A stretch of 64,000 nucleotides of DNA. Origin: Raineya orbicola. GTDB lineage: Bacteria > Bacteroidota > Bacteroidia > Cytophagales > Thermonemataceae. The notes beneath the pieces are model-generated. The model made no database searches and was not told the DNA's origin. It saw only the letters and a list, made by a program, of their open reading frames with translations. Every line of letters begins with the position of its first letter. Positions within the stretch are counted from its first letter, which is position 1. The stretch covers positions 1-64,000 of the forward strand of contig NZ_NKXO01000009.1 in the NCBI RefSeq assembly GCF_002843425.1. The letters run 5' to 3'. The translations under genes and the position numbers were made by a program. Of the stretch, positions 10,190-48,056 are shown one piece after another.

Positions 10190-11143
10190 ATGAAATTCAA
10201 ATCTGATAGAAATAAAACGCTTACTTTGAATAATGAGGAGGCTTCTTACTTGGAAAAAAAACTTATTCAAGTAGAAAAACCTGTTGATTATCAAGAAATA
10301 ATGAATAAGACTATTTGGGGAAATAGTTTGGAAATATTACGATTCTTGCCTTCTGCTTTTGTAGATTTAGCTATCATTGACCCACCCTATAACTTGGATA
10401 AAGATTTTGGCGAACTGAAATTCAGCAAAATGACAGATGAGGAGTACGAAACCTATCTTGAAAGTTGGTTTCCTGATATAATACGTTTACTCAAACCGAA
10501 TGCGTCTCTTTATATTTGCGGAGATTGGAAAAATAGCCACAGTCTTTACAACGTGCTTAAAAAGTATTTAAAGGTCAGAAATCGCATTACTTGGCAGAGA
10601 GAAAAAGGGAGAGGAGCCTTAAAGAATTGGAAAAACTGCACCGAAGATATTTGGTTTGCCACCGTGAGCGAAGATTATTACTTTGATGTAGAGTCAGTAA
10701 AGATGAAACGAAAAGTAATTGCTCCTTACAAAGAAAATGGGAAACCCAAAGATTGGCAAGAAACCGAAGATGGAAATTTTAGACTTACGTATCCTTCTAA
10801 TTTTTGGGACGATATAACTATTCCTTATTGGTCTATGCCTGAGAACACTGAACATCCTACCCAAAAACCTGAAAAACTGATTGCTAAACTTATTTTAGCA
10901 AGCTCTCCGCCGAATGCTATCATATTTGACCCCTTTTTAGGTTCTGGCACAACTTCTGTGGTAGCTAAAAAACTCGGCAGAAATTATTGTGGGGTAGAAA
11001 TTAACAAACAATACTGCCTGTGGGCTGAAAAAAGACTGATGATGGCGGAAGCTGATAAACGTATTCAAGGATATGCTGATGGAGTTTTTTGGGAAAGAAA
11101 TACTTTAAATTTTCAACAAACGGCAAGCAAGAAAAGAAATTAA
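10190..11143 (+). CDS. Site-specific DNA methyltransferase (beta-type, orphan)
   Basis: The 317-residue protein carries the amino-methyltransferase motif IV DPPYNL near residue 64 and, later, motif I DPFLGSGTTSVVA near residue 244. That order is typical of beta-class N6-adenine or N4-cytosine enzymes, and DPPY favours adenine. The segment EHPTQKPEKLI before motif I is the usual motif X region. It has its own promoter and stands as a single plus-strand gene between dxs and uvrB, both on the minus strand. No restriction nuclease is adjacent, so it may be an orphan regulatory or protective methylase. The target sequence cannot be read from the protein. Confidence 0.88.
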   Translation: MKFKSDRNKTLTLNNEEASYLEKKLIQVEKPVDYQEIMNKTIWGNSLEILRFLPSAFVDLAIIDPPYNLDKDFGELKFSKMTDEEYETYLESWFPDIIRLLKPNASLYICGDWKNSHSLYNVLKKYLKVRNRITWQREKGRGALKNWKNCTEDIWFATVSEDYYFDVESVKMKRKVIAPYKENGKPKDWQETEDGNFRLTYPSNFWDDITIPYWSMPENTEHPTQKPEKLIAKLILASSPPNAIIFDPFLGSGTTSVVAKKLGRNYCGVEINKQYCLWAEKRLMMAEADKRIQGYADGVFWERNTLNFQQTASKKRN

Positions 11144-44023: not shown

Positions 44024-44752
44024 ATGGCTTGGTACAAAGAATGGTTTGATTCACCCTATTATCATATTCTTTACAAAAACAGAGATGAGCAAGAAGCTCA
44101 AATCTGTTTAACAAATATGTTTAATTTAGTGCCAATAGTGAAAGGTTCAAAGATTTTGGATATACCTTGTGGGAGAGGTAGGCACGCCGCTTATTTAGCA
44201 AAAAATGGTTATCAGGTTACAGGGGTAGATCTTTCACTTGAAAGTATTGCTTATGCCAAAGAAAATTACCAAGGTTTATCTAATTTAGAGTTTTTCGTAC
44301 ACGATATGCGTGTGCCTTTCCGAGAGGGTTATTATGATTATGTATTGAATTTTTTTACAAGTTTTGGCTACTTTGAAACAGAAACTGAAAATGTTGCTTG
44401 TTTGCAGGCTCTTGCGAAAAATTTAAAAAAAGAAGGGACGCTTATTTTAGATTTTTTTAATACAGAACGAGTTTTGAAAGAACTTGTCCAAAAGGAAGAA
44501 GTGAAAGTTGAAGGCATCAGTTTTTACATAGAACGAGAGTTGCAGGGGAAATTTCTTGTAAAAACTATTCGTTTTACGGATAAAGGGCAAGACTATTGCT
44601 TTCAGGAGCGAGTGATGGCTATCAGCCCCGAAGAGTTTAGAAATTACTTTAAGCAAGCGGGCTTGCGTCCTTTAAGGGTGTTTGGTAACTATTTTTTAGA
44701 GCCTTATGATGAGTTTATGCCAAGAGTTATTTGGGTGCTTGTGAAAGAATAA
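44024..44752 (+). CDS. Class I SAM-dependent methyltransferase
   Basis: The 242-residue protein has motif I ILDIPCGRGRHAAYLA, the acidic end of strand 2 (VTGVDLS) and the later FVHDMRVPF and YDYVLNFFTSFGYF segments of small-molecule methyltransferases. The substrate is unknown. It starts 5 bp after bioD and ends 12 bp before the restriction endonuclease gene. It lacks the catalytic motif of DNA amino-methyltransferases and is not part of the restriction system. Confidence 0.85.
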   Translation: MAWYKEWFDSPYYHILYKNRDEQEAQICLTNMFNLVPIVKGSKILDIPCGRGRHAAYLAKNGYQVTGVDLSLESIAYAKENYQGLSNLEFFVHDMRVPFREGYYDYVLNFFTSFGYFETETENVACLQALAKNLKKEGTLILDFFNTERVLKELVQKEEVKVEGISFYIERELQGKFLVKTIRFTDKGQDYCFQERVMAISPEEFRNYFKQAGLRPLRVFGNYFLEPYDEFMPRVIWVLVKE

Positions 44753-44764
44753 AGTAATGCACTT

Positions 44765-46560
44765 ATGAAATTATGGAGTATCTCAACAACAGTCAGGAAT
44801 CCTGAACGCTTGAGAGATTTTTTGAAAACTCTCAAAGAAATAGAAGGGCAACCTTTTAATGTAGAAAATCAAATAAAATATCAAATTTTATTGATAAAAA
44901 ATCGTTTTTACAAGCCTACTCATATTCCTTCGGAATTTATACCATTGTGGGATAATCCAACGGAAAATATTAGTTATGAATTAGCTGAAAAGATATTTTA
45001 TTTACAAAACTACCAAGACCCTGCAATGCGTGGTAGGCAATCGGTAAATCCGCTTAATAAATTAGGTTTTGCAGTGGCTCGTGAGTCTTTGGGAAAAATA
45101 GAAATTACTGAACTGGGTAACAACTTTATTTCGGGTAAGTATGACATAGGCTTTACGTTTTTTAAATCTCTATTGAAACTTCAATTTCCTAATCCTTGGA
45201 GTAAAGATTTTCAAGAAGGTTTTGATGTAATTCCTTTTATAGCCGCGTTGCACTTAATTGATAGGGTTAATCAAAAATTTTCAGAAAAAGGACTTACCCA
45301 AACGGAATTTAGCTTATTTGTACCTTCTTTGGTGAATTATCAGCAAATAGACGAGTATGTTGAAAAAATTGCCTTGTACCGAAAAAGTACCGATAAAAAG
45401 CAATTTTTTTATGAATTTGCAAAAGATTTTTATCAAACCCATCCAAATGAAAAACAATTAAAAAATTTTTATGAATATGGAGATAATATAATGCGATATT
45501 TTCGTCTTACGAGATTTTTTTGTGTAAGCACTTCTTTTTTTGGAGCAGAGTGGCGAATTGATATTGAACCTAACCGAAAAATTGAAGTAGAGCAAATTTT
45601 AAGGCAGTTTTCGGGCAAGGCATTAGACTTTCAAAATGAAAAAGATTATTTGCATTATATTAGAGATATTGACTTGCCTATTTTACCAAACAAACAAGCA
45701 GAAAATATAAAGAAAATTATAGAAGGGGTGCTTACAGGATTACTTCAAATGCAAAAAACTCACCAAATTCAATTAAATGAGGAAGAAAAAGCACTTTTGG
45801 CAATTTCTTATGAAAGTTTTTCACAAAGCGAACTGGAAAATTTATTAGAAAGATTAAGAAAAATTTTAACCAAGTTTAGCACAATCATACAAAAAAAGAA
45901 ACTAATCAACAACGCCAATGAAATCCAAAAAATAATTAGTCTGTTGCAGGATAGTAAAAGGTTGCGTAAAATAGAGGCTTATCAATTTGAAAAACTGCTT
46001 GCAGATAGTCTGAAAATTATCAATGATGAAATTGAAATTAAACCTAACTATCCCGTTGATGATGTAGGAGAACCTATCAGCCATGCTGTTGGCAACCAAG
46101 CCGATATTGAGTGTTTCTATGAAAAATTCAATGCTATTTGCGAGGTTACATTAGATACTTCCTTGTATCAGTGGGTAAGAGAAACTCAGCCTGTAATGCG
46201 TCATTTGAGAGATTTTGAAAAAAAGTACAAGGATAAAAATTGTTACTGCTTGTTTATTGCCCAAAAATTCATCAAGACACCTTGTATCATTTTTGGGCAT
46301 CTATCAAATATGGATATGATGGTGCCAAACAAAAAATTATTCCTCTAAATACTCAACAATTTTCTGTTATACTTGAAACTTTACAAAAAGTACTTGTAAG
46401 TACAGGAAAACGCATTACACACTTTGAGGTAGAAAAACTTTATCAGAATATTGTAGAAATTTGCCAAATTCTTGAAGGACACTCAAATTGGCAAAGTCAA
46501 ATTGAAAATGTAGTAATTGAGTGGAAAAATAAAATTTTATCGGATTATGGTGTTAAATGA
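44765..46560 (+). pseudogene. AlwI-family type IIS restriction endonuclease, frameshifted
   Basis: The opening LWSISTTVRNPERLRDFLKT and QIKYQILLIKNRFY match the AlwI family, which cuts beside the asymmetric site GGATC. The first frame runs from 44765 to 46348 but loses the family sequence after FIAQ. From 46263 the other frame continues it as PKIHQDTLYHFW, then IKYGYDGAKQKIIPL, to a stop at 46560. A single missing base in the GCCCAAAAA run at 46259-46267 explains this: restoring one C gives FIAPKIHQDT. The repaired protein would have about 598 residues. The gene is followed at once by two methyltransferases. Whether the shift is real or an assembly error cannot be told here. Confidence 0.85.
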
Positions 46561-47341
46561 AATTTATCACGGCGATTGCATTAGTATAATGAATACAAAT
46601 ATAACTTCTGAAAGTATTCCTCTGATATTTGCTGACCCCCCCTATAACTTATCGGGTAAAGTTTTAGACCTCGCTAAAAATACCACAGGTGGGGCTTATT
46701 ACAAGGTTAATGAAAAATGGGATACTTATACTTATGAAGATTACTTGCTTTTCTGTAAGCAATGGATACAAACTGCCTACGAAAAATTAACAAGTAATGG
46801 TAGTATGTATATTTCTTGTACCCATCATAATATTGGGGAAATTATCACTACAGCTAGACAAATGGGGTTAAAGTTAAATAATATACTTACTTGGTACAAA
46901 GTCAATGCTATGCCTAATATTACTAAAAGAACCTTTACTCACGCTACTGAGTTTATTTGTTGGTTTGTAAAAGGGCAAAATTGGATTTTTAATTATGAAG
47001 TTGTAAAATCTTTCAACCCACATCGAACCAAAAAAGGGGAAACCAAACAAATGAGAGATTTTTTAGATTTTATTGAACTACCAATAGTACAGGGCAAAGA
47101 AAGAATAAAACTTGCAGGCACTAATCGTGCCGCTCATCCTACACAAAAACCTGAAAAGCTATTGGAATTGATAATTTTAGCCTCTTCTAATGAAGGCGAT
47201 GTTGTATTAGACCCTTTTTTTGGTACAGGTACAACAGGCGTTGTAGCTCAAAGGCTCAATAGAAATTGGATAGGCATTGAAAATTGTTGGGAGTACGTTC
47301 AAATTGCAAAAAAACGAATTTATGAATATTCAACTCTTTAA
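46547..47341 (+). CDS. DNA adenine methyltransferase M1 of the AlwI-like system
   Basis: The 264-residue enzyme has motif IV DPPYNLSGK near residue 28 and motif I DPFFGTGTTGVVA near residue 224, the beta-type order, with HPTQKPEKLL between. It probably methylates adenine on one strand of the asymmetric recognition site. I start at ATG 46547, which overlaps the nuclease reading frame by 14 bases; TTG 46517 would be further inside. It overlaps the next methyltransferase by 20 bases, so all three genes form a coupled unit. Confidence 0.92.
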   Translation: MVLNEIYHGDCISIMNTNITSESIPLIFADPPYNLSGKVLDLAKNTTGGAYYKVNEKWDTYTYEDYLLFCKQWIQTAYEKLTSNGSMYISCTHHNIGEIITTARQMGLKLNNILTWYKVNAMPNITKRTFTHATEFICWFVKGQNWIFNYEVVKSFNPHRTKKGETKQMRDFLDFIELPIVQGKERIKLAGTNRAAHPTQKPEKLLELIILASSNEGDVVLDPFFGTGTTGVVAQRLNRNWIGIENCWEYVQIAKKRIYEYSTL

Positions 47342-48056
47342 TGATGATTGTATTAATGTTCTGAAAGATTTGCCCGAAAAAAGCATAGATTTAATTTTTG
47401 CTGACCCCCCATATAATCTTTCAGGAGAAAATTACTTGACTACTCAAAATGGAAAAATTGCCAAACTTTACAAAGGGGATTGGGATATTATTCAGGATAT
47501 TGATGCTTTTAATTTTAAGTGGATTAGCGAGTGTATAAGGGTGCTTTCAGATACAGGTACAATTTGGGTTAGTGGAACGCTACATAATCACCCTTCGGTA
47601 GGAGTTACACTCAAAAAATTAGGTCTTTGGATTATTAACGATATTATATGGTTTAAGCCTAATGCTACGCCTTTGCTTGCTAATAACCGTTTAGCACCCG
47701 CTACCGAGCTTATTTGGCTTGCAAGCAAAACTAAAAAGTATTATTTCAATTATGAGCTTGCCAAACAACTTAATGGCGGTAAGCAAATGAAAAACTTGTG
47801 GATTATCAATGCAGAAAAACATAAAACTATCCACAAAACTGAAAAACCCGAGTCACTTTTGCAAAGAATTATTTTGCTTGGCTCACAAGAAGGAAAAACC
47901 GTTTTAGACCCTTTTTTAGGAAGCGGAACTACAGGGGTAGTGGCAAAACGTTTGCATAGAAATTTTATAGGTATAGAAATTGATAAAAAATATTTTGAGA
48001 TTGCTTCTAAAAGAATTATTGATGAAGTTGTTGCACAAGAATTGAAATTTACCTAA
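47322..48056 (+). CDS. DNA adenine methyltransferase M2 of the AlwI-like system
   Basis: A second beta-type methyltransferase of 244 residues with DPPYNLSGENY and DPFLGSGTTGVVAKR. A type IIS system with an asymmetric target needs two activities, one for each strand, and this pair fits that need. The start at ATG 47322 (MNIQLFNDDC) matches where its sister protein begins. M1 and M2 resemble each other but are clearly diverged, which points to an old duplication rather than a recent one. Confidence 0.92.
   Translation: MNIQLFNDDCINVLKDLPEKSIDLIFADPPYNLSGENYLTTQNGKIAKLYKGDWDIIQDIDAFNFKWISECIRVLSDTGTIWVSGTLHNHPSVGVTLKKLGLWIINDIIWFKPNATPLLANNRLAPATELIWLASKTKKYYFNYELAKQLNGGKQMKNLWIINAEKHKTIHKTEKPESLLQRIILLGSQEGKTVLDPFLGSGTTGVVAKRLHRNFIGIEIDKKYFEIASKRIIDEVVAQELKFT

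Follow-up and report, generated by a model that had tools for sequence, protein, structure and literature searches.

Genes of the locus

The window considered here, a stretch of 64,000 nucleotides from Raineya orbicola, contains a nuclease gene of the AlwI family that is interrupted by a change of reading frame, and two overlapping methyltransferase genes, M1 and M2, that directly follow it. The ORF calls confirm the gene coordinates of a preliminary description of this DNA. The features, with their strands, are as follows.

44024 to 44752, plus strand: left flanking gene, a SAM-dependent methyltransferase outside the system, with an orthologue in 7 of 7 relatives tested
44757 to 48044, no strand: inserted cassette (ends approximate), for which the genus relative G001 has an empty site
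44765 to 46348, plus strand: frame 0 part of the nuclease (AlwI family, PF09491, type IIS), 527 aa, the last ~26 residues out of frame; profile match and match to N.BspD6I (E 1e-20)
45989 to 46183, plus strand: predicted catalytic stretch of the nuclease (E409, D447, E460, E473), entirely upstream of the break
46259 to 46263, plus strand: frame break, at which GCC (Ala499, frame 0) and CCA (Pro, -1 frame) share one base
46261 to 46560, plus strand: C-terminal ~100 residues of the nuclease in the -1 frame, stop-free, matching PF09491 402-439 and 36-44% identical to seven relatives
46547 to 47341, plus strand: M1, a predicted beta-class N6-adenine DNA methyltransferase, intact; N6_N4_Mtase 198 bits, 67% identity to the M1 of L010
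47322 to 48056, plus strand: M2, a predicted beta-class N6-adenine DNA methyltransferase, intact; N6_N4_Mtase 195 bits, 69% identity to the M2 of L010
48060 to 49706, plus strand: right flanking gene, an Ig-like domain protein outside the system, with an orthologue in 7 of 7 relatives tested

The AlwI-family type IIS nuclease proposed for this locus is borne out by the match of both pieces to the Pfam profile RE_AlwI (PF09491), whose curated cut-off is 23.1 bits. The frame 0 product scores 226 bits, with residues 99-501 on positions 2-404 of the 441 in the profile, and the -1 frame ORF scores 25.7 bits on positions 402-439. Because the two pieces match the profile consecutively, they represent a single gene joined at the break, with codon 499 (GCC, 46259-46261) of frame 0 on its left and CCA (46261-46263) of the -1 frame on its right. 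Frame 0 reads YCLFIA up to the break and QKFIK beyond it, and the -1 frame reads C followed by PKIHQDTLYHFW; eight aligned relatives carry ..F[IV]AP[KRS].H.DT...FW.. across the same point in a single frame. Since the conserved Ala and Pro codons overlap by one base, the window is one base short here with respect to these relatives. The frameshift previously described, which moves the C-terminal ~100 residues into another frame, is therefore upheld, as the displaced tail still matches PF09491, resembles seven relatives beyond chance (36-44% identity), and the relatives have one frame. In the alignment with the eight relatives, ~26 unrelated residues replace the conserved tail. The -1 frame is free of further stops up to 46560, which suggests that the loss of the nuclease is probably recent.

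Predicted catalytic residues E409, D447, E460 and E473 align with E418, D456, E469 and E482 of N.BspD6I, the catalytic residues of that enzyme, and all four are invariant in 9 of 9 aligned sequences. AlphaFold models, at mean pLDDT 53 and 60, have poorly modelled nuclease cores and are too weak for judging this part. On sequence grounds the window nuclease is clearly an AlwI-family member by descent, and a broken copy, since it has no complete single frame that includes the C-terminal ~100 residues.

M1 and M2 each cover the N6_N4_Mtase profile almost end to end and show the beta-class order of motifs, with ADPPYNLSG near the N-terminus and DPF[FL]G[TS]GTTG near the C-terminus. The structural matches of M1 include CcrM (E 2e-48) and MboIIA (E 6e-29), and the nearest solved structure to M2 is also CcrM (E 2e-54). 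Because the nearest solved relatives of the pair, CcrM, DpnA (5HEK) and MboIIA, are m6A enzymes, both proteins are likely to methylate adenine at N6. M1 and M2 are 38% identical to one another, and L010 and G322, two relatives described below, possess a separate orthologue of each, so that two different methylases adjoin the nuclease, as in a type IIS M1/M2 system. The site of a type IIS nuclease is asymmetric, which makes protection of both strands necessary; the overlapping M1 and M2 originally noted as the kind needed for such a target are indeed present as two intact beta-class frames. M1 overlaps the tail of the nuclease gene, as read through to 46560, by 14 nt, and M2 overlaps M1 by 20 nt. 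Whereas the nuclease and M1 frames overlap in the intact relatives, the nuclease stop in the window now falls 198 nt before the M1 start, and the gap after this premature stop might reduce translation or expression of M1.

Insertion site, relatives and target

In G001 (contig C4) the two flanking genes are separated by 57 bp; at this empty site they share 68% and 85% protein identity with those of the window. DNA homology between the window and G001 ends at ~44753 and resumes at 48045 (AAATTTACCTAA), and the last M2 codons fall within DNA that matches the G001 spacer. Because the flanks are adjacent in G001, and homology stops and resumes in this way, the cassette represents an insertion of ~3.3 kb between two resident genes. 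Its GC content of 0.32-0.34 is lower than the 0.36-0.40 of most of the DNA around it, and there is no integrase or transposase inside it. In a second genus relative, G003, the two flanking genes are on different contigs. G003 has no nuclease of the window type, and its only AlwI-family gene is the orthologue of a different one in the R. orbicola genome. By these sequence comparisons, the cassette is privately and horizontally acquired.

That other R. orbicola gene, on contig 23 (L039:3302-6838), encodes a second AlwI-family nuclease, unbroken and of 514 aa, which stands behind two D12 methylases and is 72.5% identical to the one in G003. In its methylase partners it is closer to AlwI than the window nuclease is.

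The nearest full relative of the cassette is found in an Aminicenantes MAG (L010), which has the same R-M1-M2 order and identities of 54% for the nuclease, 67% for M1 and 69% for M2. The same three genes occur in G322, from the same phylum as the window (nuclease 40-43%, M1 67%, M2 64.5%). In both, the nuclease occupies a single open frame, and G322 and seven other relatives read through the break point in one frame. A nuclease start fragment that is 66% identical lies at a contig end in an Aquificaceae MAG (L017). We found no relatives in viral contigs and phages, and a plasmid search returned distant relatives only.

A second group of loci (L011-L016), with nuclease identities of about 40-42%, has one beta-class methylase downstream of the nuclease, closest to M1, and a D12-class methylase upstream, usually fused to a RadC domain. 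Should the nucleases of the two groups have the same target, M2 and the D12 methylase would be two non-homologous enzymes that protect one and the same strand. Decay is also seen in this second group: in L018, a frameshifted nuclease start is joined to a methylase end. The RadC-D12 methylase fusion lies directly upstream of the AlwI-family nuclease at L012:403-2208 and likewise in L013, L014, L016 and L018, these MAGs belonging to several phyla.

How far the locus resembles characterized systems depends on which component is compared. AlwI and the plasmid systems of Acinetobacter and Geobacillus also have a PF09491 nuclease, but nuclease identity to the window enzyme is ~23%. The methylases differ in kind and position: the AlwI-family plasmid systems have one fused double Dam/D12 methylase upstream, the partner of the Acinetobacter lwoffii nuclease in its plasmid record, and the AlwI methylases are described as joined in one chain (PMC4081073). 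In contrast, the window has no Dam-type double methylase in one chain and instead has two separate PF01555 beta-class enzymes downstream. The label 'AlwI-like', first attached to the locus, is thus right as to descent within PF09491 and too close as to the enzyme itself, given 23% identity to the A. lwoffii nuclease and different methylase partners.

The closest solved nuclease structures are those of N.BspD6I/Nt.BstNBI, MlyI and PleI (GAGTC), and the predicted catalytic residues are conserved. A separate small subunit such as that of BspD6I is not seen at the window locus. For MlyI, whose GAGTC target is quasi-palindromic, one GASTC methylase suffices, whereas other systems use two (PMC4081073), as does the window locus. 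The locus also resembles R.Cal02329/M1/M2 of Caldicellulosiruptor, an SfaNI-like system in which an AlwI-family type IIS nuclease shares its operon with two m6A methylases, separate proteins that each serve one strand. This system is active and by experiment recognises GATGC/GCATC; a close homologue had earlier been listed as GASTC (PMC9799307). The likeness is one of gene content and arrangement as described, and the window nuclease, unlike the active enzyme, is frame-broken.

The presence of two separate, diverged methylases in the window speaks against a quasi-palindromic target. The more specific suggestion of GGATC is unsupported, since GAGTC and GCATC enzymes belong to this family too and the methylase class differs from the AlwI type. 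Depleted words are uninformative about this target: GGATC is rare, yet GATC as such is depleted in four members of the genus, including two that lack AlwI-family genes, and G precedes 39 of ~164 GATC strand-words, so that there is no extra depletion of GGATC. GGATG, the only strongly depleted 5-mer that is truly asymmetric, was also rejected as a candidate, being depleted in G001, which has no AlwI-family genes, and hardly at all in G322.

Nature of the frame break

We considered whether the break might be a sequencing or assembly error, in which case the nuclease would be intact and active. The genome is a draft of 104 contigs, and one base within a C run is a plausible mistake. However, 13 longer homopolymer runs in the nuclease gene are unbroken, and no other broken genes are apparent in the window. 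Proteins from sampled contigs of G001 and G003, set against 640 kb of the R. orbicola genome (the window, L039-L055 and L178-L197), revealed only one other frameshift in 68,402 aligned residues (about 205 kb of coding sequence; 208 comparisons). It lies near 5189-5231 of L040 (contig 6) and interrupts the gene of a beta-class methyltransferase (L040:4842-5692), which adjoins an intact methylase gene; both of these genes are intact in G003 contig 331. Because frameshifts are rare in this assembly, and both of them hit restriction-modification genes, as real decay predicts, we regard an error as unlikely. At the level of sequence, decay of restriction-modification genes is a pattern in this host.

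A second alternative, which takes up the slippage in a C3A5 tract suggested in the preliminary description, is that the nuclease is restored at times, either because the tract is phase-variable or through ribosomal or transcriptional slippage on its A run. Slipping back by one base on A AAA would bring the frames together again, and a moderate hairpin lies downstream of the break, but the slip would place Gln where 8 of 8 relatives and N.BspD6I keep Pro. For programmed -1 frameshifting there is in addition no in-frame heptamer of the form X XXY YYZ, and the downstream fold is ordinary (z-score -1.2). Phase variation would be expected to show a long simple repeat at the break, which has C3A5 only, a tract that is short and common (CCCAAAAA has 78 copies in 240 kb), and none of the relatives has an off-frame design. 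Switching of either kind is therefore unsupported and, in our estimate, very improbable; judged from sequence, it is far likelier that the frame has been lost for good.

A third alternative concerns the 527-residue product itself. Since the break comes after all four of its predicted catalytic residues, some nicking or DNA binding could conceivably persist; a truncated nuclease with a function of its own could act as a nickase, bind the site, or regulate the methylases as their partner. The recognition part is likewise in frame, and the large subunit of BstNBI/BspD6I nicks alone (PMC4081073). N.BspD6I, however, retains its C-terminal part, which the frame 0 product loses, and the lost tail is conserved in 8 of 8 relatives and here gives way to unrelated residues. 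We therefore consider such a function the least probable of the three alternatives. Similarly improbable is the broader proposal that the truncated nuclease has been kept as a nickase or as a site-binding partner of M1 and M2, which would make the locus a methylation-based regulator rather than a relic.

Methylation and restriction in the host

A fixed loss of the nuclease in an acquired cassette is, with high probability, the explanation of this locus: a type IIS system whose nuclease was lost to a single-base deletion, so that cutting is most likely gone, and whose M1 and M2 are intact, so that the host most likely still methylates. It is the best account of what was directly observed, namely the homology, the gene order, the frame break, the intact M1 and M2 frames, and the empty site in a relative. 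In such a sequence of events, the nuclease-M1-M2 cassette would have been acquired horizontally, and a single base would then have been lost from the nuclease gene, displacing the C-terminal ~100 residues from the frame and leaving an enzyme that most likely makes no productive double-strand cuts. M1 and M2 would probably divide the two strands of an asymmetric site between them, each marking an adenine, and the host, in which they are most likely expressed and active, would methylate this site without restricting. The original suggestion that methylation is kept and cutting lost is thus probable, in that the break accompanies intact M1 and M2 frames, from which we infer both the loss of cutting and the activity of the methylases. 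In other words, the locus is best read as an ordinary stage in the decay of a restriction-modification system, and not as a new kind of system. The literature that we found on nuclease decay offers general statements only.

Across all contigs of the R. orbicola genome (3.07 Mb) there are 25 PF01555 matches, about 16 of them full-length, six clear D12 methylase genes and no PF00145 m5C methylase; in all, about 20 genes encode DNA methyltransferases. One further beta-class DNA methylase lies within the window at 10190-11143, with no obvious adjoining nuclease. The methylase load of G003 is similar, and G001 has only about three methylases and is still depleted in GATC, GGCC, GCGC and CCGG. In the 640 kb of R. 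orbicola sequence, CATG (12 sites), GCGC (4), GGCC (25), GATC (82), TCGA (104) and CTAG (111) occur at 0.005-0.05 of the expectation from base composition, and GTGAC, GCWGC, GGATG, CTNAG, ACWGT, CCWGG, GAWTC and several 6-mers are likewise depleted; many restriction-like words are, unexpectedly, all but missing from the genome. The depletion of CATG is far stronger than in three genus relatives. The host lineage therefore shows unusually strong signs of restriction pressure, and may be a more interesting subject than the locus itself.

With an empty site in a genus relative, a private cassette and a break that is a single event, the locus cleanly illustrates how a full restriction-modification system is reduced to a pair of solitary methylases, and M1 and M2 could serve as new strand-specific m6A enzymes.
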